Shown: positions 6,572-36,388 of the stretch, in pieces
Position numbering within the stretch: the stretch's first letter is position 1
Layout of the letters: each line of letters starts with the position of its first letter
NCBI GenBank assembly: GCA_017305715.1
Contig: JAFKKG010000025.1
Coordinates: 62,001-126,000, forward strand
Direction of reading: 5' to 3'
DNA: 64,000 nucleotides
Source: Hyphomicrobiales bacterium
GTDB taxonomy: Bacteria; Pseudomonadota; Alphaproteobacteria; Rhizobiales; Xanthobacteraceae
Program-made: the position numbers and the translations under genes
The notes under the pieces: model-generated
The model's database searches: none
The model's input: only the letters and a program-made list of their open reading frames with translations
What the model was told of the DNA's origin: nothing

Positions 6572-7480
6572 ATGAATATAAATAGCCACGACCTGCAGGT
6601 CTTCCTCACGCTGGCGCAAGAGAAGAACTTCACGCGCGCAGCGGCGCGCTGCGGTCTGTCGCAGTCCGCCTTCAGTACCCGCATTTCGTCGCTGGAACAC
6701 GCTTTGGGCGCCAAACTGTTCGACCGCACCACCCGCCGGGTCGAGCTCACGCCGGATGGCGAGGAATTCGAGCCGTTTGCCCATCAATTGCACGCCGATC
6801 TATCCGATGTCGTCCAGATATTCCGCGATCGGGCAGCGCGTCGCAGGGGCCGCGTAGCGATCGCAGCCCTGCCTTCGGTCTCCGCTGGCTGGATGCCGAA
6901 AGTGCTGTCGCAATTTGCCAAGCGGCATCCCGAGATTCAGTTGTCGCTGACCGACGGAATAGCGGAGACGTGTGCGTCCCTGGTTCGAAGCGGTGAAGTC
7001 GACTTTGGGCTGTCGACGCTCGACGATGCGGAAGATCTGGACAAGCAACTCGTCGCGATCGATCACTTCCATCTGGTCTGCGGCAAGAACCACGCCTTGC
7101 TGACGAAGAAGAAGATCACCGCTGCGGATATCGCGTCCTTTCCGTTCATCCATCTGACACGCAACAGCAGCGTCCGGCGGCTTCTCGATGCAGCTTTTGA
7201 TCGCGTCAAACTCAAGCCGTATCTCGAAGCGAACTACATGGCTACACTTGCCGGCATGGTAGAGGCTGATCTCGGCGTCACGATAGTCCCGTCGCTCAGC
7301 CTCCATCAATTCATTCGTCCCACGCTCGGCACCAGAGTTCTGCAGACACCCAGGATATCCCGCCCCATTTACCTGATAAGGCGTCGTGGTCGCACGCTGT
7401 CCGCGGCTGCCGACACTCTGTTTAATCAAATTCGGCTGACAGACTTCGAGAACTCCCCGATGCGGCGCAGGCGTTCCTAG
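6572..7480 (+). CDS. LysR-family transcriptional regulator
   Basis: A 302-residue LysR-type regulator. The N-terminal winged helix-turn-helix is clear (LQVFLTLAQEKNFTRAAARCGLSQSAFSTRISSLE, then LGAKLFDRTTRRVELTPDG). It is followed by a linker helix and a two-lobed effector domain with RGRVAIAALPSVSAGWMP, a DFGLS motif and GMVEADLGVTIVPSL. I use the ATG at 6572, since an in-frame TTG at 6560 lies inside the presumed operator region. It is divergent from the Bug-hyuA-hyuB-paiB-like operon, the standard arrangement for a LysR protein that senses a pathway metabolite and represses its own gene. The effector is probably the operon's substrate or product. Confidence 0.93.
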   Translation: MNINSHDLQVFLTLAQEKNFTRAAARCGLSQSAFSTRISSLEHALGAKLFDRTTRRVELTPDGEEFEPFAHQLHADLSDVVQIFRDRAARRRGRVAIAALPSVSAGWMPKVLSQFAKRHPEIQLSLTDGIAETCASLVRSGEVDFGLSTLDDAEDLDKQLVAIDHFHLVCGKNHALLTKKKITAADIASFPFIHLTRNSSVRRLLDAAFDRVKLKPYLEANYMATLAGMVEADLGVTIVPSLSLHQFIRPTLGTRVLQTPRISRPIYLIRRRGRTLSAAADTLFNQIRLTDFENSPMRRRRS

Positions 7481-7546
7481 CGCTGGTATCCCTGCGCTAT
7501 CGATGATCGGGGCGCGCGTGGAGGGGCCGCATCCCAATAGATAGCC

Positions 7547-8012
7547 GGATGCGACAAACTGACCCGACGGGCAAATCACGGCTTCCGATTTACGGAAGTC
7601 ATGTCAAGCCCCCAAAATGAAAAATATTTCGCTTTTCCGAAATGGCAAACCAGTGCATATCTGTGCCCATCCCGTCCCACTCAGAGGGGCGTTGGCCATC
7701 GTCACAACGAGGGACGGGTCGCGGTGGACGCAAGAGTTGCGCTTGACGCGCGCGACAAAGGCGTACGGCAAAGACGTGTGGTCCTGACGCCGCGTTGCTG
7801 GCGTCCATGCACCTGGGAGGCGTCTGACTTCCCAGGGCGCGACGGAGGCAAAAGAGCCGTTCTCCGGAGAGAGCACGTTATAAGCCGTAAAGCCATCGCG
7901 CAGGGAATGTCGGATGTTCTCCGCTGCCCTGTATGCTCATGTGCGCACTCTTTTGTGCACATTGCACATGAGACCGCGGGTGCAGCGCGCATCCGGCATT
8001 CCCTGCGCCCTC
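7547..8012. repeat. Long dispersed-type intergenic repeat ending in a large hairpin
   Basis: The block starts near a 'gacccgacgggcaaatca' segment, passes through 'gtcccactcagaggggcg' and 'gtgtggtcctgacgccgcg', and ends 'cattccctgcgccctcc'. I recall this arrangement as a recurring intergenic repeat in Bradyrhizobium genomes; that is memory, not a search. Its right end forms a large inverted repeat: 7898-7916 and 7990-8008 match at 18 of 19 paired bases (GCGCAGGGAATG...), with inner arms CTCATGTGC at 7936-7944 and GCACATGAG at 7964-7972. The exact left boundary is uncertain. Confidence 0.6.
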
Positions 8013-22325: not shown

Positions 22326-26525
<4,200 letters not shown>

Positions 26526-26550
26526 GTCCGAAAATTGACGATGTGACCAG

Positions 26551-26580
26551 AAAAGGCCGGCGCGAGCCGGCCTTTTTATT
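26551..26580 (+). terminator. Rho-independent terminator of the rpo operon
   Basis: AAAAGGCCGGC at 26551-26561 pairs with GCCGGCCTTTT at 26566-26576 around a GCGA tetraloop, and the T-run continues. It lies 25 bases after the rpoC stop. Confidence 0.92.
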
Positions 26581-26822
26581 GGGCATTCGCCGGCGCGCCA
26601 GCAGGGAGGAAGGCCATCGCGCTGCCGTTCGGCCCCGGGGCTGGAAATTTCAGCAGGATTGCGGAATTTTACCGGGCATTATCGCGCGCTGTGTGACCTT
26701 TGCTACATTGGTGCAACGCTTGGACCTGCTTTGTTCATCTTCCCTTCAGGGTGAAAAGCGCTTTTGCTAGGACAACTTAGGACCGGCCGCATTTGGGGCT
26801 GCTGGGAACTTGCGGAACTGAC

Positions 26823-28877
26823 ATGCTCGATCTTGCAATCGTAGGCGGCGGCCCGGGCGGGCTGATGAGCGCCTGGTATTTGAAAAAGAAGCTCGGCGAC
26901 CTCTGCCGCGTCACGATCTATGAGGCGTCCGACCGCGTCGGCGGCAAGATCGTGACCCGCAAATTCGACTCGGCGCCCGCGATGTACGAGGCCGGCGTTG
27001 CCGAAATCTACGATTATTCGATGACCGGCCCCGATCCGCTGCGGGAGCTGATCCAGCATTTCGGCCTGCAGACGATTCCGATGGACGCCGAGCAGGTTCA
27101 GTTCGACGGCGAACTGCTCAACGACGTGCCGGGCATGCGCCGCAAATATGGCGCGAAGACCGCGGCCGCGATCGAGGCCTTCCGCAAGCGCTGCACCGAT
27201 ATGATGTCGCCGATCGAGTATTATGAAGGAGTCGGCGCCCACGACAACGACCATCCCTGGGCCTACATGAACGCCGAGGAACTACTCGACAAATTCGTCG
27301 ACGATGACATCGCCAAGCGCTTCTTCAAGGTGATGGCCCGCTCCGACATCGCCACCGAGCCGCACAACACCAACGGGCTCAACGCGCTGAAGAACTTCGT
27401 GATGGATGTCGACGGCTATATCGGCCTGTATTCGATCCAGAACGGCAACGAACAACTGGTCGATTGCCTGCGCTCAGAAGTGAAGGCGGACATCCATCTC
27501 AACCATCGGGTGCTCAAGGTCGGCAAGACGCCGGCCGGCCGCTACCAGCTCAACATGATGAACGGCAAGGGGCCCGAGACGCGCGACTTCGACCTCGTGG
27601 TGATGTGCCTGCCGCATTCCTGGCTCTCGACCATGCGCTGGGACGGCGAAGAACTGCGCAAGTCGATGGTCAAGCACGTCGCCTATTTCGACCGGCCCGC
27701 GCATTATCTGCGGGTCTCGATCCTGTTCGACGAACCGTTCTGGAGCGAGAAGGTCCCCGGCGCCTGGTGGATGTCGGAAGCGTTCGGAGGCTGCTGCGTC
27801 TACAACGAAGGCGCACGCCATGACGTCGGCAAGCACGGTGTCCTGAACTGGCTGATCGCGGGTTCCGACGCGCTCGCGTTCGCCAATCTCGGCGACCAGG
27901 AACTGATCGACGCCGCGCTGAAGTCGCTGCCGGCATCGTTCGGCAATGCCCAGGATCATTTCATGGAAGGCAAGATTCACCGCTGGCTGTCGTCGGTGAA
28001 CGCGCTGCCGGGCGGCCTACCGGCGCGCGACGTCATGACCAACCACCGGCCCGAGCCGAAGCAGCATCCGGGGCTCGTCGTGGTCGGCGACTATCTGTTC
28101 GATTCGACGCTGAACGGACTGCTCGATTCATCCGACGCCGCCACCGACATCATCGTCACCGAGATGATGCGGCTGCGCCGCGCCCGCGCGCAGGCGGACG
28201 GCGCACTCTCGGACAAGATCGACCGCGAATATTTCGAGAATTACCGCGGGCTTGGCCCTTACAGCGAGGTCTGGAACCAGTTTACCGACCCGGACTACCT
28301 GACGAACCTGATCAAGATCGTCTGGAACCGGGCGAAGGGCTACAAGCTCCTGGTCGCCGGTTCCGCCAGCGGCCAACTGGTCGGCGCGTTGCGCGAGCGC
28401 GGGATCGACGCGTGGGGTATCGAGAACAACAAGGCGATCCATGCCAAGACGCCGAAGGCGCTGCAGAAGTTCAACAAGCTCGGCTCGATCGTCGATATGC
28501 CGTTCAAGGACGAGGCGTTCGATTTCGTGTTCGAAACCAGCCTCTGCCATGTCCCGGAAAAGCAGGTCTTGCGTGCGGTGTCCGAACTGAACCGTGTGAT
28601 GAGCACCGGTCTGATGTTCGGTTCGGTCACCTCGGACATGGCGCCGGCGCTGATCGACCGCTACGACCTGCTGCGCGGCGTCAAGAAGCTCGGCACCTGG
28701 TGGGAATGGTCGGAGTTGTTCTTCAGCAACGGATTCGACCTCTCGATGCATCGCCGCGACGTCACCGATGCGCTGTGGGCGGCGACGCTTGCCGCCAACA
28801 AGGGGCCGGGGCATTGGTACGCCGACTCCGACAGCTTGCGCTATTCGTTCTTCGACAAGGTGGAATCAGAGGACTGA
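26823..28877 (+). CDS. Flavin amine oxidase-like / methyltransferase-like fusion protein
   Basis: A 684-residue two-domain protein. Residues 1 to about 450 form an FAD-dependent oxidoreductase of the amine oxidase/protoporphyrinogen oxidase superfamily: dinucleotide loop IVGGGPGGLMSAWYL (GGGPGG at 8-13), the E-x-GG segment YEASDRVGGKI and a C-terminal FAD contact at LVVVGDYLFDSTLNG. From about 500 onward a SAM-dependent methyltransferase-like domain is visible: a degenerate motif I (VAGSASGQLVGAL), an acidic residue ending beta-2 (GIENN), and a motif II/III region (VDMPFKDEAFDFVFE, SELNRVM). The first motif lacks the usual E/DxGxGxG spacing, so methyl transfer is not certain. I use the ATG at 26823; an upstream TTG is weaker. 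It opens the non-ribosomal gene group between rpoC and rpsL and is followed by an ABC exporter. Substrate unknown. Confidence 0.8.
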   Translation: MLDLAIVGGGPGGLMSAWYLKKKLGDLCRVTIYEASDRVGGKIVTRKFDSAPAMYEAGVAEIYDYSMTGPDPLRELIQHFGLQTIPMDAEQVQFDGELLNDVPGMRRKYGAKTAAAIEAFRKRCTDMMSPIEYYEGVGAHDNDHPWAYMNAEELLDKFVDDDIAKRFFKVMARSDIATEPHNTNGLNALKNFVMDVDGYIGLYSIQNGNEQLVDCLRSEVKADIHLNHRVLKVGKTPAGRYQLNMMNGKGPETRDFDLVVMCLPHSWLSTMRWDGEELRKSMVKHVAYFDRPAHYLRVSILFDEPFWSEKVPGAWWMSEAFGGCCVYNEGARHDVGKHGVLNWLIAGSDALAFANLGDQELIDAALKSLPASFGNAQDHFMEGKIHRWLSSVNALPGGLPARDVMTNHRPEPKQHPGLVVVGDYLFDSTLNGLLDSSDAATDIIVTEMMRLRRARAQADGALSDKIDREYFENYRGLGPYSEVWNQFTDPDYLTNLIKIVWNRAKGYKLLVAGSASGQLVGALRERGIDAWGIENNKAIHAKTPKALQKFNKLGSIVDMPFKDEAFDFVFETSLCHVPEKQVLRAVSELNRVMSTGLMFGSVTSDMAPALIDRYDLLRGVKKLGTWWEWSELFFSNGFDLSMHRRDVTDALWAATLAANKGPGHWYADSDSLRYSFFDKVESED

Positions 28878-29005
28878 CCGGCCGCCGCCGGAGCTTCAAT
28901 TGTTTTGCCGAATTCATTCTGATCGCATAGGATTGCCGCGGTAGCATCCCCCGCTATCGCATTTCGATGTGCGGTCATGCCGGCCGTGCAGTATCAGTTG
29001 GTCTC

Positions 29006-31057
29006 ATGGCGCCAAAGCCTCCTTCTTCCGACGAGCAGAATCCCGCACCGGCGGACGATCCTGAGCTCGCGAAAAAACTCGCGCTGGAGGCGCTCGCTGC
29101 CGGCGGCAAGGAGGCCGCGGCAGCCCCGGAAGACAAGGACAAAAAAGACAAAGGCAAGGAAGCCGACGAGCTGGATGATGACGATGATGACGATGATGAC
29201 GACGAGGATCTCGTCGTCTTCACCGCCAAGGAAGCCGCCGGCGCGATGGCGACGGTTTACCGCTTCGTCAGGCCGTATCTTGGCACTCGGCGATACAGCA
29301 AACTGATTGCGTTCGTCGCGTTCGGCGTCCTGGTCGAGACGGCGTTCAACGTCATCATGCCGCTGAGCCTGAAGTTCCTGATCGACGATGCGCTCGGCGA
29401 AGAGGATTTCCAGGCCCTGTACACCATCCTCGGCGTGCTCGCGGTCGCCGGCATCCTCACCTCGATCGTAGCGGTCTGGTATGAGCGTTGGGATGCCCGG
29501 CTGGCGGCCGGCATCATCGCCGATGTCCGGGCCAACCTGTTCCAGCATGTCCAGAGCCTGCCGGCGTCGTATTTTGCCCGCACCAAGCGCGGTGAAATTC
29601 TCTCGCGCTTCTCGATCGACCTTTCCGCCTTCGAAGGCTCGGTGAAGACCTTCGCCAACAGCGCGGCGTTGCCGTTCCTGGAACTGGTTGCCGGCATTGT
29701 GCTGATGATGTTCCTGAACTGGCAGCTTGCGGCGGTGGCGCTGCTGGTGTTTCCGATCACGCTGATCGGGCCGCGGATCCTGACCCCGAAGGCGGTGGAG
29801 GCGAATTACCAGCAGAAGCTGAACGAGTCTGCCGTGCTCGCGGTGGTACAGGAAAACGTCGCGGCCCAGGCGGTGGTCAAGGCCTTCAGCCTGCAACGCC
29901 GCACGTTCGGCTGGTTCGCCCTGCGCAATGACGATGTGCGCCGCAAGACGGCCTCGGCGGTGTTTCTGTCGACCATGGTGGAGCGCACCGTCACGATCTC
30001 GGTGCTGTTGCTGCACCTCGTGGTGCTCGCGATCGGCGCCTATCTCGCCACCAAGGGCCAGATCACCATCGGAACCTTCGTGACGTTCGAAAGCGCGTTC
30101 TGGGAGGTTTCCTACAACATCGCCCATCTGATGCACTTCATTCCGGTGTCGATCCAGGCCGCCGCGGCGGTGCGTCACATCGAGGAATTGCTGGACGAGC
30201 CGACCCGCGGGGCCGACCGCGCCGGCGCACCCGAACTGCCGCGTATCACCAACGACATCACCTTCGATCGCGTGACCTTCCAGTATGAAGGCAGCGAAAC
30301 GCCGGTGCTCGACAATCTCAGCCTCAAGCTCAATGCGGGCAAGAGCATCGCGATCGTCGGTCCCTCTGGCTCCGGCAAGAGTACGCTGCTCAATTTGATT
30401 TTGCGTCTCTACCAGCCCGATGAGGGCAGGTTGACCATCGACGGTGTCGACGTCCGCCGCGTCACGCTGGAATCGCTGCGCCGAAGCATGGCGGTGGTGT
30501 TCCAGGAGAACATGCTGTTCAACATGTCGATCCGCGAAAACATCCGGCTCGGCAAGGAAGGCGCCAGCGACGAGGAGGTGGAGGAGGCGGCCAGGAAGGC
30601 CGAGATCCACCAATACATCATGAGCCTGCCGCAGCAATACGATACGTCGGTCGGTGAGCGCGGCGACACGCTGTCGGGCGGCCAGCGCCAGCGCATCGCG
30701 ATCGCACGCGCGGTGATCCGCAACCCGTCCGTCCTGCTGCTCGACGAGGCGACCTCCGCGCTCGACCAGACCACGGAAGCTGCGATCAATCGCACGCTGC
30801 TGAAAGTGGCGGAAGGGCGCACCATGATCTGGTCGACGCACCGGCTGACATCGGTGGTCGAAATGGACGAGATCATCGTGATTTCAAACGGCAAGGCGAT
30901 CGAACGCGGGTCACATACCGAACTGCTTGCGAAAAATGGCGTCTACCGCAAGCTCTGGGACGACCAGGGCCACAGGCCGCACAACGCGGCCGGTCAGGCC
31001 GACGACGACAATGAAGACGATGATGACGACGACGATGAGGATGACGACGAGGAGTGA
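29006..31057 (+). CDS. ABC transporter, fused permease and ATPase, with acidic termini
   Basis: A 683-residue ABC half-exporter. The cytoplasmic N-terminus is Lys/Glu/Asp-rich and holds an Asp/Glu tract at residues 52-68. A six-helix type-1 exporter membrane domain follows (about 85-385), then an ATPase domain with Walker A GPSGSGKST near 452, signature LSGGQRQR near 556, Walker B LLLDEA near 579 and the switch STHR. The protein ends in another almost purely acidic tract (about 666-683). I favour the ATG at 29006 because codons between it and an upstream ATG at 28967 are not GC3-biased. It probably works as a homodimer exporting a lipid, peptide or small molecule. It lies 128 bases after the oxidase-methyltransferase gene in the same direction. 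Confidence 0.9.
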   Translation: MAPKPPSSDEQNPAPADDPELAKKLALEALAAGGKEAAAAPEDKDKKDKGKEADELDDDDDDDDDDEDLVVFTAKEAAGAMATVYRFVRPYLGTRRYSKLIAFVAFGVLVETAFNVIMPLSLKFLIDDALGEEDFQALYTILGVLAVAGILTSIVAVWYERWDARLAAGIIADVRANLFQHVQSLPASYFARTKRGEILSRFSIDLSAFEGSVKTFANSAALPFLELVAGIVLMMFLNWQLAAVALLVFPITLIGPRILTPKAVEANYQQKLNESAVLAVVQENVAAQAVVKAFSLQRRTFGWFALRNDDVRRKTASAVFLSTMVERTVTISVLLLHLVVLAIGAYLATKGQITIGTFVTFESAFWEVSYNIAHLMHFIPVSIQAAAAVRHIEELLDEPTRGADRAGAPELPRITNDITFDRVTFQYEGSETPVLDNLSLKLNAGKSIAIVGPSGSGKSTLLNLILRLYQPDEGRLTIDGVDVRRVTLESLRRSMAVVFQENMLFNMSIRENIRLGKEGASDEEVEEAARKAEIHQYIMSLPQQYDTSVGERGDTLSGGQRQRIAIARAVIRNPSVLLLDEATSALDQTTEAAINRTLLKVAEGRTMIWSTHRLTSVVEMDEIIVISNGKAIERGSHTELLAKNGVYRKLWDDQGHRPHNAAGQADDDNEDDDDDDDEDDDEE

Positions 31058-31095
31058 GCGGGCAGGGCGGCTGACGTAAAGCCACCTCGACCGGG

Positions 31096-32301
31096 TCAGG
31101 CGAGCCGGCGGTGCCGCGGATGCCCGACGTTGCTGCGATTGTCGGCCGCCGATCCTCTCGAAGCGCGCTTGCGAACGGCCAGCAATGTTCCCTGCGCCAG
31201 CCTGACCAGGAAGCGGGCCCAGCGCTGGGCGCGCCAGGACAATCCACTATCGATCGACAGCGAGCGGAGGTGATAGGCCTTGGCCAGACATCGCGCCTCG
31301 CAGGCCTGCTTTTCGGAGTCCTCATAGAACTGCGAGATCTTGCCGGACGCCATGCCGTCAGTGGCAAGCCATTGCGGGATGTAGACATTGCACAGGCGTC
31401 CCACATCGGTGAACACCTTGGTGGTACCGGTGCCGGCGGCCGGGCAGGAGGTGGAGAACGCGTCACCCACCAGCACGATGCCGGGTTGCAGGTGCCCCTC
31501 GGTGACGCACAGGTCGGCCGGCCTGATCTTGATCGGACCGACGACCTTGAAGGCGCCCATCATGCGTTGCAAACCCGGCATCAGGGCGCGCATGGTCGCT
31601 TCGGGCGCCTTGCGGAATTCGGGCAGCCAAGGGTCGGTCATATCCCGGTACACCATCAGGTTGACGCGCATCGCGCCACCGATTGGAAACACCGAGAGAT
31701 AGGCCATACGGGCGCGCGTCCGCCCCGGCCAGTAGGTCAACGCCGGAAAATCAAACTGGGCGCGGCCTTGCGGCTCGACATTGAAGCCGAGCGTGATCGA
31801 ATGACATTCGCTGATGACGCGGCGCTTGATGCCCATCATATGGCGCAGGCCGATGTTCAGGCCGTTGGCGAGAACCACCAGCCGTGCCGAGATCTCCTCG
31901 TCATTGGACAGGACGATCTTCTGCCGCTCCGCGCTGTTCGTGATCGCGGAGGCCTTGGCTAAAATGGTTTCGACGCCGGCCGGGACCTGCGCCCGCATGG
32001 TGTTGACCAGCATGTCGTACATGATGCCGTGCTGGTCGCTGGGCTTGCGGGCGACGACATGCCCGAAGCGCGCTTCCCAGACTTCGCTGTCAAGCGTCGT
32101 CGCGTGCAAGGTCTGCTCGGCAAGGCCGGTCTTGCGCAAGAGGTCGAGCTGTTCGCCGCCGATCTTCTCGCAGCGGAGTTCGGGCGGGTAGACGGTGTGG
32201 GGATCGATCAGCAGCGCCGGAATGCCGGCGCGGCCCAGCATTGCCGCTGCGGTCGACCCGGCAAGTCCGCCGCCGACGATGGCAACATCCGTATACCGCA
32301 T
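31096..32301 (-). CDS. FAD-dependent monooxygenase-like protein, copy 1
   Basis: A 401-residue flavoprotein of the p-hydroxybenzoate hydroxylase/UbiH/halogenase-like group. The FAD dinucleotide loop is VGGGLAGSTAAAMLGRAG at residues 9-26, a LVVLANGLN segment sits in the middle, and the second FAD motif GIVLVGDAFSTSCPAAGTG appears about two-thirds along. No signal peptide or membrane anchor is obvious. It is a paralogue of the 401-residue protein at 33628-34833; the two flank the acyltransferase gene on the opposite strand. Halogenase-specific WxWxIP is not seen, so hydroxylation or epoxidation is more likely. It is convergent with the ABC transporter gene and divergent from the acyltransferase. 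Confidence 0.85.
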   Translation of the reverse strand: MRYTDVAIVGGGLAGSTAAAMLGRAGIPALLIDPHTVYPPELRCEKIGGEQLDLLRKTGLAEQTLHATTLDSEVWEARFGHVVARKPSDQHGIMYDMLVNTMRAQVPAGVETILAKASAITNSAERQKIVLSNDEEISARLVVLANGLNIGLRHMMGIKRRVISECHSITLGFNVEPQGRAQFDFPALTYWPGRTRARMAYLSVFPIGGAMRVNLMVYRDMTDPWLPEFRKAPEATMRALMPGLQRMMGAFKVVGPIKIRPADLCVTEGHLQPGIVLVGDAFSTSCPAAGTGTTKVFTDVGRLCNVYIPQWLATDGMASGKISQFYEDSEKQACEARCLAKAYHLRSLSIDSGLSWRAQRWARFLVRLAQGTLLAVRKRASRGSAADNRSNVGHPRHRRLA

Positions 32302-32357
32302 CCCGTTGGCCTTTCACCCAGCGAGCCTTTCTGCGCCGAAAAGACAAAGAAACCTTG

Positions 32358-32388
32358 AAAGTGATCCCGCTAAAAAGTGATCCCGCCA
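32358..32388. repeat. Short tandem duplication
   Basis: AAAGTGATCCCGC at 32358-32370 recurs at 32374-32386 with a 16-base period, in the divergent intergenic region between the first monooxygenase-like gene and the acyltransferase. It may be a doubled operator or chance slippage. Confidence 0.5.
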
Positions 32389-32412
32389 AACGGCTGCTCC
32401 GGCTCCGACTTA

Positions 32413-33612
32413 ATGGAAAAGCAATGTCGGGAGAACACGATCCGGCTTTCGAGGCGTTTGACCGAGGCATCGATCTTGACGGTCGCAGTAACGATTGATT
32501 CACCAACCCCGGACATCGGCCCGCAATGGGACGATCTGGTTCGGCGTGCCTCATCGAACGCCTTCATGAATCCCGCCGCCTTGGCGGCCGCCTGCGAAAT
32601 GAATTTCGCCAAAATCCGTATGCTGCTGGCCTGGGAGATCGTGGGCGTATCGCGCAAGCTCGTCGGCGTCTGGGCGCTGCAGTTGCGCAAACTGGCGCCG
32701 TTCTGGCCGATGGTGCTGGAAGCGCTGCCTTACAACTATGCCTTCCTGTCCAGTCCGATCGTCGATCCCGATTTCGCCGACGCGGTGATGGCGGCGTTCT
32801 TGGCTGCGATCGAGCAAACCCCGTTGCTGCCGAATGTCGTGAGCCTGAAATCCTTCGACGCGGAATCTTGCGCTTATGCCGCGATGATGAAGCTGCTGAT
32901 CGGACGTGGCGGGCAGCACCTCATACTGTCCGAGACCGCGCGGCCGTGCGTGACGCGAGAGTTCGGCGTGAAGCGGGCCGGGTCCACGCGCAAGAAACTG
33001 CGCCAGGACTGGAACAGGCTGTCGGCGCTTGGCGCCGTGGAGATTGTGAACGACCGGACGCCTGCGGCCGTCGAGCGGGCTTTCGAGACGTTTCTGGCGA
33101 TGGAAAAAGCCAGCTGGAAGGGCGAGCAGGGGACCGCGTTGTTGTCGGATCCCCGGGACGCGGCCTTCGTCAGGCGCTTGCTGCATCATCTGGCTGTCCG
33201 CGGCGACGCTTCGGTCGCCGTGCTGCGGATCAATGGTGAAGCCATCGCCGCCCAGGTGCTGATGTATTGCGGTCCGAGCGCCTACACCTGGAAAACCGCC
33301 TACGATGCGAAGTTCGCCAAATACTCGCCCGGTACCCTGCTGATCGACCGGGTCACCGAACAGCTGTTCGCCGGACCGGATATCATGCAGATCGACTCCT
33401 GCGCGGCGGAGGAGAGCTTCATGGCCCAATTGTGGGCCGGCCGGCGAACCATGGTCGACATGCTGATCGACATCGGACCCGGAAAATCGCTCGATTACCG
33501 AATGGAGGCCGGCCGGCAGCTTGGCTATCAGGGCCTGAGGGACCTGCGGGACCGGCTCCGTAACCGCCATGCGGCGCGCCCGAACGCAAGGCCGCACCAC
33601 GACGCGGCCTGA
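32413..33612 (+). CDS. GNAT acyltransferase, CelD/BcsL type
   Basis: A 399-residue protein resembling the CelD/FemAB-like acetyltransferase group (Acetyltransf_6). Characteristic segments are RKKLRQDWNRLSALGAVEIV, an AFETFLAMEKASWKGEQGTAL stretch and the acyl-CoA-side strand VAVLRINGEAIAAQVLMYCG with YTWKTAYDAKFAKYSPGTLL, then ID-x-CAAEESF. Relatives act in cellulose, exopolysaccharide or cell-envelope modification by N- or O-acylation. The start is uncertain: the ATG at 32413 is chosen, but the first 25 codons are less GC3-biased, and a start further in is possible. It lies alone on the plus strand between two minus-strand paralogous flavoproteins. Confidence 0.8.
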   Translation: MEKQCRENTIRLSRRLTEASILTVAVTIDSPTPDIGPQWDDLVRRASSNAFMNPAALAAACEMNFAKIRMLLAWEIVGVSRKLVGVWALQLRKLAPFWPMVLEALPYNYAFLSSPIVDPDFADAVMAAFLAAIEQTPLLPNVVSLKSFDAESCAYAAMMKLLIGRGGQHLILSETARPCVTREFGVKRAGSTRKKLRQDWNRLSALGAVEIVNDRTPAAVERAFETFLAMEKASWKGEQGTALLSDPRDAAFVRRLLHHLAVRGDASVAVLRINGEAIAAQVLMYCGPSAYTWKTAYDAKFAKYSPGTLLIDRVTEQLFAGPDIMQIDSCAAEESFMAQLWAGRRTMVDMLIDIGPGKSLDYRMEAGRQLGYQGLRDLRDRLRNRHAARPNARPHHDAA

Positions 33613-33627
33613 TAGGGCCGCCGGTCG

Positions 33628-34833
33628 TCAGCTTGGTCCGGTCAGGGCAGATGACGACGACGCGGCATGAATGCGGGACTCTGGTTCCGCGCTGATCGCC
33701 TTGCGCAGCCGCCGCAAATGGCCTTCGCCGAACCACGCCAGGAGGCGCGCCAGACGTTGTGCACGCCAGTAGATTCCGTGGTCCAGCGTGACCTTGCGGA
33801 AGCTCAACGCCTTGGCCATCGACCAGCTGTCGCAGGCCTGCTTGACCGGGTCCGCGTAGTACGTCGCGATCTTGGCTTCGGCCATGCCTGCGGTGGCCAG
33901 CCAGGCCGGAATATGGACGTTGCAGAGTTGGGTGACGTCCGTGAACACCTTGTCGGAGCCGGTGCCCGTGACCGGGCAGGTCGCGGCAAAGGCGTCGCCG
34001 ACCAGGACGATGCCAGGCTGGCGATAGCCGGTGCTGACGTAGAGATCGGCCGGCCTGATCTTGACGTCGCTGGACACGGAATATTCGCCGGTGATCCGGC
34101 GCAGCCGCGGCAGCGCGGCATTCATGGTCTCGGCCGGCTTCCGCCGCATCTCGCGCAGCCAGGGATCGTCGGCCTCGCGATAGGCGAACAGATTGGCCCG
34201 CATCTTGTTGCCGACCGGAAACAGCGTCAGATAAGGGACGCGGCCGCTCGGCCGTTCCGAGAAATAGGTCATTGCCGGAAACGCGAAATCAGGGCGGCCG
34301 ACCGGCTCGATGTCGAATCCGATCGAGATCGAGTGGCAGGCGCTGAGGATCTGGCGTTCGATGCCGAGATTGCGGCGCAGTCCGATATTCAACCCATTGG
34401 CCAGCACCACCAGCCGCGCCGAGATCGTTTCGCCGCTGGCCAGCGTGAGTTTCTGGCGGTCGTCGCTGGTCGAGACATCCGTGACCTTGCCGTAGACCAA
34501 TTCGGCGGGTTTGGGGATTTCGGCGCGAATCGCCATGATCAACGCGTCATACATGATGCCGAACTGGTGGCTCGGCCGCTTGTCGAGCAGGTAGCCCGCG
34601 CGCGCGATCCAGTTTTCGCCGCCATAGGTGGCCGAACGCAGCAGCGATTCGGCGAATCCGGTCCTTTGCAAAAGGTCGACCTGGGTGCCGCTGAGCTTTT
34701 CGACGCGAAAATCGAACGGATAATTTTCATGCGGATCGATCAGGAGCGTCGGAATCCCGGCGCGTCCGAGCATCGCGGCTGCGGTCGAGCCGGCGAGGCC
34801 GCCGCCGATAATTGCAATGTCGGTGTACCGCAT
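33628..34833 (-). CDS. FAD-dependent monooxygenase-like protein, copy 2
   Basis: A 401-residue paralogue of the protein at 31096-32301, with the same length and a near-identical start (MRYTDIAIIGGGLAGSTAAA). It keeps the same landmarks in the same order: SARLVVLANGLNIGLRR, GRPDFAFPAMTY, IRPADLYVSTG and GIVLVGDAFAATCPVTGTG. The middle and C-terminal parts differ clearly, so the duplication is not very recent and the two copies may have different substrates or form a heteromer. Its stop is 15 bases from the acyltransferase stop (convergent). A palindrome at 34943-34956 lies about 110 bases before its start. Confidence 0.85.
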   Translation of the reverse strand: MRYTDIAIIGGGLAGSTAAAMLGRAGIPTLLIDPHENYPFDFRVEKLSGTQVDLLQRTGFAESLLRSATYGGENWIARAGYLLDKRPSHQFGIMYDALIMAIRAEIPKPAELVYGKVTDVSTSDDRQKLTLASGETISARLVVLANGLNIGLRRNLGIERQILSACHSISIGFDIEPVGRPDFAFPAMTYFSERPSGRVPYLTLFPVGNKMRANLFAYREADDPWLREMRRKPAETMNAALPRLRRITGEYSVSSDVKIRPADLYVSTGYRQPGIVLVGDAFAATCPVTGTGSDKVFTDVTQLCNVHIPAWLATAGMAEAKIATYYADPVKQACDSWSMAKALSFRKVTLDHGIYWRAQRLARLLAWFGEGHLRRLRKAISAEPESRIHAASSSSALTGPS

Positions 34834-34942
34834 GGGAAATCCCGGCCTCGAAACGCTAGTTTTGCGCCGGGAAAGGCAAACAAAGGCTTAGTTGGCGGCC
34901 GGCTTCGGGGCGGATTCTCCGGGAATCGTGCTTCTGGGTATA

Positions 34943-34956
34943 TTTATCCGGGTAAA
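34943..34956. promoter_or_regulatory. Operator-like palindrome
   Basis: TTTATCC at 34943-34949 and GGGTAAA at 34950-34956 form a 14-base palindrome with one mismatched pair, in an AT-rich patch that stands out from the GC-rich surroundings. It could bind a regulator of the divergent flavoprotein gene or of the str operon. Confidence 0.35.
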
Positions 34957-35084
34957 ATAAGCGAGAATCGTTTATACGCCCGATTCCGCAAACGCGAAGG
35001 GGGCTGCCGATTTTCGCGCGCAATGATTCATGCGAAGTCCTGATTCCGCTATCGCCATAGGCTTTTCCTGCACTGTCGTTTCGC

Positions 35085-35113
35085 TTGACTTACCTACCCA
35101 CGGCTTATAGAAG
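35085..35113 (+). promoter_or_regulatory. Candidate promoter of the str operon
   Basis: TTGACT at 35085-35090, a 17-base spacer and TAGAAG at 35108-35113; TATAGA at 35106 gives a 15-base alternative. It resembles the secE promoter candidate. Confidence 0.55.
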
Positions 35114-35530
35114 ACCCCCACTTCACGACAGGCGGTGAGCGTCGCCAGCGTCGGAACGGAACACCCTTCAAATCCTCACGGACTTAAATCCTGACAGGCT
35201 GACGGGCACCAACCTCGACGAATGCCGCTCAAACGCTGTCGATCATATAGCTAGGCAATGCCAGTGCGATGTTGGTTCTCTTGAGCATGGTCTCTTGAGA
35301 GTGAACTCGGATGCATGACCTCGGTAGCAGGCCGGACAGCGAACGCTGATCGGCCTTCAGTCGCGGTCCTCTGTGGCGTCGAAGCGCTTTCCGCTCAGCA
35401 ATGAGTGGTTGGCGCGATTTCGTTTTGCGTGGGTGTTTTTCGCGCAACGCGGCCGAACGGGACGGCTAGTTCCGAGAAGAATTTGCGAAGCCATTATCGG
35501 GTTCGCGCGAACTAAAGGGTGAAGGCTGAC

Positions 35531-35902
35531 ATGCCGACGATCAACCAGCTGATCGCAAAACCGCGTACGGTGCAGAAGTCGCGCAAGAAGGTGCCGGCGC
35601 TGCAACAGTCGCCGCAGAAGCGCGGCGTTTGCACGCGCGTCTACACCACGACCCCGAAGAAGCCGAACTCGGCGCTTCGTAAGGTCGCAAAGGTGCGTCT
35701 GACCAATGGCTTCGAGGTGATCGGCTATATTCCGGGTGAAGGCCATAACCTTCAGGAGCACTCGGTGGTCATGATCCGCGGCGGCCGCGTCAAGGACTTG
35801 CCCGGCGTGCGCTACCACATTCTCCGCGGCGTCCTCGATACCCAGGGCGTCAAGAACCGTAAGCAGCGTCGTTCGAAGTACGGCGCGAAGCGTCCGAAGT
35901 AA
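35531..35902 (+). CDS. rpsL: 30S ribosomal protein S12
   Basis: 123 residues. The decoding-centre loops [11 protein letters not shown] and KDLPGVRYH carry lysines at the positions where streptomycin-resistance mutations arise, so the sequence is of the sensitive type. The ATG at 35531 gives the usual MPTINQLI start; an upstream GTG is ignored. First gene of the str operon (rpsL-rpsG-fusA-tuf). Confidence 0.99.

Positions 35903-36388
<486 letters not shown>

Follow-up and report, generated by a model that had tools for sequence, protein, structure and literature searches.

Gene Content of the rpoC–rpsL Interval

The window, a 64,000-nucleotide stretch of contig JAFKKG010000025.1 from a Hyphomicrobiales bacterium of the Xanthobacteraceae, carries five intact genes at 26823–34833, between rpoC (22326–26525) and rpsL (35519–35902, PF00164). 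We describe these genes here, above all the pair named AOMT and ABC. The coordinates agree with the initial annotation, an earlier reading of the same DNA, which had placed five genes after rpoC instead of rpsL. The rpoC-to-rpsL gap measures 8.99 kb, and the str operon follows in the order rpsL (35519), rpsG (35918), fusA, and tuf. AOMT (26823–28877, plus strand) encodes 684 amino acids, a fusion of a flavin amine-oxidase-like domain (PF01593) and a class I S-adenosylmethionine (SAM) methyltransferase domain (PF08241). ABC (28967–31057, plus strand) encodes a half-transporter exporter of the ABCB type that resembles MsbA and Sav1866 and has acidic tails. FAD1 (31096–32301, minus strand) encodes a group A flavin-monooxygenase-like protein and is the divergent partner of GNAT (32377–33612, plus strand; exact start uncertain), a CelD/FemAB-like acyltransferase (PF13480). 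FAD2 (33628–34833, minus strand) is a FAD1 paralogue from a lineage without a GNAT partner.

Pfam confirmed the family of each of the five genes, in agreement with the initial annotation of an ABC exporter, two paralogous FAD monooxygenase-like proteins (55% identical), and a CelD-type acyltransferase. Intact relatives exist elsewhere for all five, which are therefore real genes, and their strand order (+ + − + −) makes a single operon of five impossible. The GC content of the genes is 0.62–0.65, against 0.626 for the window, and base composition gives no sign of a recent import.

Linkage, Inheritance, and Selection of AOMT and ABC

We surveyed 119 genomes of the family, including the window's own, with AOMT, ABC, FAD2, GNAT, rpsL, and the rpoC C-terminus as queries; AOMT was called present at ≥75% identity and ABC at E 1e-150. 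AOMT was found in 33 of the 119 genomes and ABC in the identical 33. Both genes lie inside the rpoC–rpsL interval in all 30 contiguous cases; the remaining three have rpoC and rpsL on separate contigs. The distribution goes with rpoC identity: the pair occurs in 33 of the 36 genomes whose rpoC C-terminus is ≥85% identical to that of the window and in none of the 76 below this value. The three exceptions (G019, G061, and G102) all belong to genus g20. FAD and GNAT are still in the slot of G061 and G102, the two exceptions that were checked for remnants, with no trace of AOMT or ABC there at E 1e-3. In G083, also of genus g20, AOMT, ABC, FAD, and GNAT are all present. The g20 loci L102 and L110 show a clean absence of AOMT–ABC between rpoC and FAD–GNAT.

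A second set comprised the best 80 of 261 AOMT relatives, mostly from Bradyrhizobium, with three from Tardiphaga and five from bins without a genus name; being recruited through AOMT, these loci carry no information on the frequency with which AOMT is absent. ABC directly follows AOMT in 80/80 of them. In 70 sequences with all three proteins, the Mantel correlation with rpoC distances was 0.844 for AOMT and 0.849 for ABC, and that between AOMT and ABC was 0.909; the highest value in 999 permutations was 0.20. The history of the pair thus follows that of rpoC, that is, vertical inheritance. The ratios of nonsynonymous to synonymous substitution rates (dN/dS) against the window across ten loci were 0.11–0.18 for AOMT and 0.16–0.22 for ABC, compared with 0.17–0.29 for FAD1 (five values), 0.22–0.33 for FAD2 (five values), and 0.23–0.34 for GNAT (three values). 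Four values were dropped as codon-misalignment artefacts (GNAT with L020 and L058, fusA with L020 and L073).

Beyond the clade, among 385 sampled genomes of the class, two outside the family carry the AOMT fusion at E 1e-60, and two family genomes (G041 and G113) carry a relative of 42–43% identity located elsewhere. A search of AOMT against 72,556 plasmid records gave no match at E 1e-20. In one single-contig genome, AOMT is read in two overlapping frames with a break near residue 348 (G024:C1:5999027-6001077), either a frameshift or a sequencing error.

A Conserved 20-nt Element Precedes AOMT

In the alignment of the regions upstream of AOMT, one block stands without decay. It contains the 20-nt element TTTGTTCATCTTYCCTTCAG (26730–26749, plus strand), a candidate operator or promoter element. 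The element is present with at most two mismatches in 83/83 close AOMT sequences (the window, 79 recruited loci, and three family genomes), 69 of which are perfect; one of the 80 recruited loci lacked upstream sequence and was left out. In all three distant AOMT genes compared, the best site had at least seven mismatches, and none of 860 shuffled upstream sequences had fewer than six. The genome of the window holds the element once, and the sole further site within three mismatches has three. Among the 119 family genomes, it occurs at ≤1 mismatch in 25 genomes of 10 genera, as one copy each and 86–299 nt ahead of AOMT; the other 86 genomes, which lack a close AOMT, have no such site.

Together with the next bases, the element reads TTCATCT-N7-AGgTGAA in many genera, with one extra base in the window; in our reading, this dyad would suit a dimeric regulator. 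An RNA leader was also considered and set aside: folding of eight upstream sequences was weak (consensus −2.05 kcal/mol, covariation term 0.08), and no Rfam family matched at gathering scores in 26400–36000, so a DNA site is likelier. The 20-nt element is probably a control site of AOMT–ABC and, as a single-copy element shared across genera, offers a direct handle for finding the regulator of the pair.

Architecture of AOMT and ABC

The fusion of a flavin oxidase with a methyltransferase, proposed in the initial annotation, was borne out by the domain searches. Residues 12–432 of AOMT match PF01593 with 108.9 bits (gathering cut-off 19.8), and residues 512–596 correspond to PF08241, where Methyltransf_11 scores 34 bits (cut-off 21.2) and Methyltransf_25 scores 28.2 bits (cut-off 27). 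A profile built from 13 AOMT sequences retrieved monoamine, putrescine, and other flavin oxidases with the first part and assorted methyltransferases with the second, and no solved chain listed in this search matches both halves. The FAD-binding motifs GGGxGG and ExxxRxGG are conserved, also in relatives of 40–42% identity. Gly513, Ser514, Gly517, Glu534, and Asp567 are invariant in the 13 sequences, including relatives at this identity, and presumably represent the glycine-rich loop and the acidic ribose-binding residue of the SAM site. The SAM loop reads GSASG in the window and GSGxG in distant relatives. AOMT thus shares PF01593 and the FAD-binding motifs with flavin amine oxidases, such as monoamine oxidase A and putrescine oxidase, but differs from them in its fusion to a methyltransferase and in the C-terminal motif GDYxFDxTxNG.

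The ABC protein combines ABC_membrane and ABC_tran (Pfam) with Walker A, Walker B, signature, and H-loop motifs, as expected of an ABCB-type exporter. In 31 of the 32 other genomes, the match leaves out at least the first six residues, so the true start may lie downstream of 28967, for example at about 29006. The domain pair and the nucleotide-binding motifs are shared with MsbA, Sav1866, and ABCB exporters; in contrast to these, the window protein falls under the MsbA equivalog cut-off, has acidic N- and C-terminal tails, and is paired with AOMT. It scores 385 bits against TIGR02203 (cut-off 602) and ranks fifth among the 10 matches in the genome, none of which passes. With four loci scoring higher, the idea that AOMT–ABC supplies the cell's MsbA was not supported.

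FAD1, GNAT, and FAD2 Are Variable Cargo

The three downstream genes come and go. We counted 74 complete ABC–rpsL intervals among the recruited loci, six of the 80 being incomplete on their contigs: 36 contain FAD2 only, 23 none of FAD1, GNAT, and FAD2, seven a broken or partial FAD2, five FAD1 and GNAT, one a partial FAD1 with GNAT, one FAD1 and GNAT with a split FAD2 (L058), and one all three intact (L073). FAD2 is therefore partial or split in 8/74. In the 30 contiguous AOMT intervals of the family, FAD is inside 11 (only a fragment in G105), GNAT inside nine, and neither inside 17; FAD was counted with FAD2 as query at E 1e-25 among the best 15 candidates or fewer per genome, and GNAT from matches at E 3e-60 or stronger, weaker ones being 28–38% identical. 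FAD is broken in G061.

FAD–GNAT pairs are found outside the slot as well, in genomes that lack AOMT. In the family, at the same GNAT threshold, a FAD gene lies no more than 700 bp from 21 of the 26 top-ranking GNAT sites, mostly in divergent orientation. A tree of 59 FAD proteins places FAD1 among GNAT-linked copies, and FAD2 belongs to a clade of 39 copies that are not linked to GNAT; the linkage label changes twice on this tree and 16 times on average after shuffling. One unlinked FAD falls among the linked copies; it lies in the slot of G095, near a GNAT that belongs to a different Pfam family. Within the locus, FAD2 stands alone, as an orphan paralogue of FAD1.

At other loci, the FAD–GNAT pairs of G112 and G083 have as neighbors a second GNAT, glycosyltransferases, a GINT1_N protein, and a cellulase-family protein, as identified by Pfam in G083 and by homology to the G083 genes in G112. 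An Aureimonas plasmid carries a FAD relative (42%) amid VpsF, exopolysaccharide transport, GINT1_N, and GNAT genes; in all, FAD1 has six plasmid matches, at 33–42% identity. FAD–GNAT relatives in gene clusters of a polysaccharide locus type stand in L107, L108, and L114, where a cellulase-family hydrolase is encoded along with glycosyltransferases and a GINT1_N protein.

The model of FAD2 (predicted local distance difference test, pLDDT, 79.9) has the PHBH-type fold of a group A flavin monooxygenase, while FAD1 was assessed by alignment only. Across 22 sequences Gly279 and Asp280 are invariant, as is Gly147, and the position before the latter holds Asn146 in 20/22; we take these residues to correspond to the GD and DG motifs of group A enzymes, the first kept and the second altered. 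The FAD proteins are only 12–20% identical to UbiI/UbiH, PHBH, and squalene epoxidase, and they have NG instead of DG. GNAT matches PF13480 with 97.8 bits (cut-off 22). Its only NCBIfam match is the BspF-type GNAT (NF047385, residues 56–397), at 126 bits far under the 775-bit cut-off, so that GNAT is not a member of that group. By type, it may be likened to HfsK of Caulobacter, a large FemX-like GNAT acyltransferase that is tied to surface polysaccharide and has an effect on the cohesion of the holdfast (PMC5362036); no holdfast cluster lies at the window locus.

The Slot and Its Flanking Signals

On the rpoC side, the strong terminator noted in the initial annotation was confirmed as a GGCCGGC hairpin with a T run at approximately 26550–26580 on the plus strand (−19.5 kcal/mol), and a hairpin followed by T4 is found within 90 nt past rpoC in 56/79 sequences. 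On the rpsL side, a promoter-like site of the rpsL operon, TTGAC-N16-TATA, lies on the plus strand at approximately 35085–35110, 434 nt before rpsL; TTGAC-N15–19-TATA occurs upstream of rpsL in 60/75 sequences, against 14/1500 shuffled ones. A simple promoter and terminator scan listed neither signal and gave fewer promoter-like and terminator-like sites than the mean of its shuffles. The TTGAC-N16-TATA site is excluded by the spacer limits of that scan, and the hairpin was presumably missed because its T run was counted in the stem. Given the conserved site, rpsL can probably be transcribed from its own putative promoter, and insertions in the slot would harm neither flanking operon.

The rpoC–rpsL interval spans 5269–14,400 bp in the 30 AOMT genomes where it is contiguous and 429–8533 bp (median 1481) in 59 of the 78 genomes that lack AOMT and gave a match for rpoC or rpsL. 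Other cargo was seen as well, such as a chromate transporter (L039, 9283–10536), an AAT-type acyltransferase (L017, 14357–15367), and major facilitator superfamily and LysR genes (L101, 2814–9074). Between rpoC and AOMT, L010 (8600–9694) and L015 (8673–9776) encode a protein of about 365 residues whose C-terminus appears LuxR-like by eye; a Pfam search of the L010 copy gave no match at 0.001. Gaps of 1.5 kb like those of L010 and L015 occur in 13 other recruited loci.

Discussion

With moderate confidence, we interpret the locus as a slot that holds two independent modules, AOMT–ABC and FAD1–GNAT, and an orphan, FAD2. The slot would be an insulated docking site, bounded by the rpoBC terminator on one side and by the separate promoter of the rpsL operon on the other. 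In the first module, the flavin domain of AOMT would oxidize and the fused methyltransferase would methylate one small molecule or lipid; the adjoining ABCB-type exporter would carry the product across the inner membrane, and the module would probably be controlled via the 20-nt element. In the second, the divergent FAD1–GNAT pair would be of the surface-polysaccharide tailoring type, joining flavin oxidation to sugar N-acylation, and would have been inserted as optional cargo beside the orphan FAD2. More tentatively, AOMT–ABC may constitute an undescribed, clade-defining system for the biosynthesis and export of a methylated, oxidized metabolite or lipid, with a dedicated single-target regulatory site kept near letter-perfect across at least 10 genera.

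Several observations weigh against this interpretation. Adjacency is no proof of a shared pathway, and four distant AOMT genes (40–42% identity), namely the two from outside the family and the two distant family copies, adjoin another gene in place of ABC, so the link between pump and enzyme is not obligatory beyond the clade. The gene behind all four encodes a protein of 280–290 residues with a hydrophobic C-terminus and no Pfam match at 0.01 (L094, 10159–11031; L096, 9057–9908; L097, 10312–11154; L095, about 6966–7850 on the minus strand). The structure model of AOMT is of low confidence (mean pLDDT 38), and rpoC (dN/dS 0.04–0.13) is under tighter constraint than AOMT and ABC. Seven of the 33 AOMT genomes carry a degraded element, with two mismatches in two, three in four, and six, which is chance level, in one (G043); in G089 a run of N makes it unreadable. 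As for the second module, no polysaccharide genes stand beside FAD–GNAT at the rpoC slot, and the FAD/GNAT copies of G081, G056, and G012 adjoin an M48 peptidase gene and a Mesorhizobium plasmid copy adjoins chrA, so its polysaccharide link is not universal.

Among the alternatives, a role of AOMT and ABC in envelope lipid chemistry or flipping, such as of a modified membrane lipid, is a real possibility, if a doubtful one. ABC ranks near MsbA-type and ABCB4-type lipid exporters, and purifying selection with vertical inheritance would fit such a role, but ABCB-type drug exporters match equally well, and the MsbA score stays at 385 of the required 602 bits, below four loci of the same genome. 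It is unlikely that AOMT and ABC are mere neighbors with unrelated functions, held together by a conserved position. The slot is itself conserved and the distant AOMT genes have a different neighbor, both in favor of this explanation; yet the pair stays together in 33/33 genomes while other cargo comes and goes, and both genes are missing from the three g20 genomes without AOMT (remnants were sought in two).

A polyamine substrate for AOMT, with ABC handling the methylated, oxidized product, appears distinctly improbable. The best solved relatives in the profile search are monoamine and putrescine oxidases, and the clade depends on homospermidine: a transposon-sequencing study reports five genes as possibly essential to the clade, namely four hopanoid genes and homospermidine synthase (PMC8225791). 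The likeness to amine oxidases is nevertheless partial and at the family level, L-amino acid oxidases and protoporphyrinogen oxidase match too, and nothing here ties AOMT–ABC to polyamines. The view that all five genes form one biosynthesis-and-secretion locus is hardly tenable, for although the five are intact in the window and in L073, and nearly so in L058, this holds for one of 74 intervals against 23 without the downstream three, both strands are used, and FAD–GNAT without AOMT and AOMT without FAD–GNAT both occur.

The last view was that of the initial annotation, of which the part concerning AOMT–ABC is supported and the part concerning FAD1, GNAT, and FAD2 is not. It had itself held that independence of the genes in relatives would speak against one system, and such independence is what FAD1, GNAT, and FAD2 display: co-occurrence of the five is rare, FAD–GNAT is found elsewhere without AOMT, and comparison of the rpoC–rpsL interval revealed two g20 genomes that keep FAD–GNAT in the slot without the pair. 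A single cluster gained, kept, and lost together was accordingly rejected, since the pair is kept while the other three vary. An anti-phage defence system received no specific support either; PADLOC, for which no cut-offs were supplied, gave weak matches or generic ATPase-domain matches.

Searches of the open-access literature found no paper on the locus or on the AOMT–ABC pair, nor any for the tags bll5406–5408, blr5406, RPA3256, RPA3265, and RPA3266, which are only presumed to belong to these genes. In the literature on strain USDA110, bll5409 and bll5410 are RNA polymerase genes and bll5404 is S7; from this tag order, USDA110 should hold three genes in the slot. AOMT, ABC, and their neighbors are not among the five clade-essential genes of PMC8225791. 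This hints only weakly that they are dispensable, since the list took only genes that E. coli and Caulobacter lack.

AOMT–ABC is a well-defined, clade-specific, and apparently undescribed pair, present in 33 of the 36 sampled clade genomes and under stronger conservation than its optional neighbors. The clade includes soybean symbionts, with B. diazoefficiens and B. japonicum loci among the AOMT relatives, and the locus illustrates how cargo can gather in a stable slot that two essential operons enclose.

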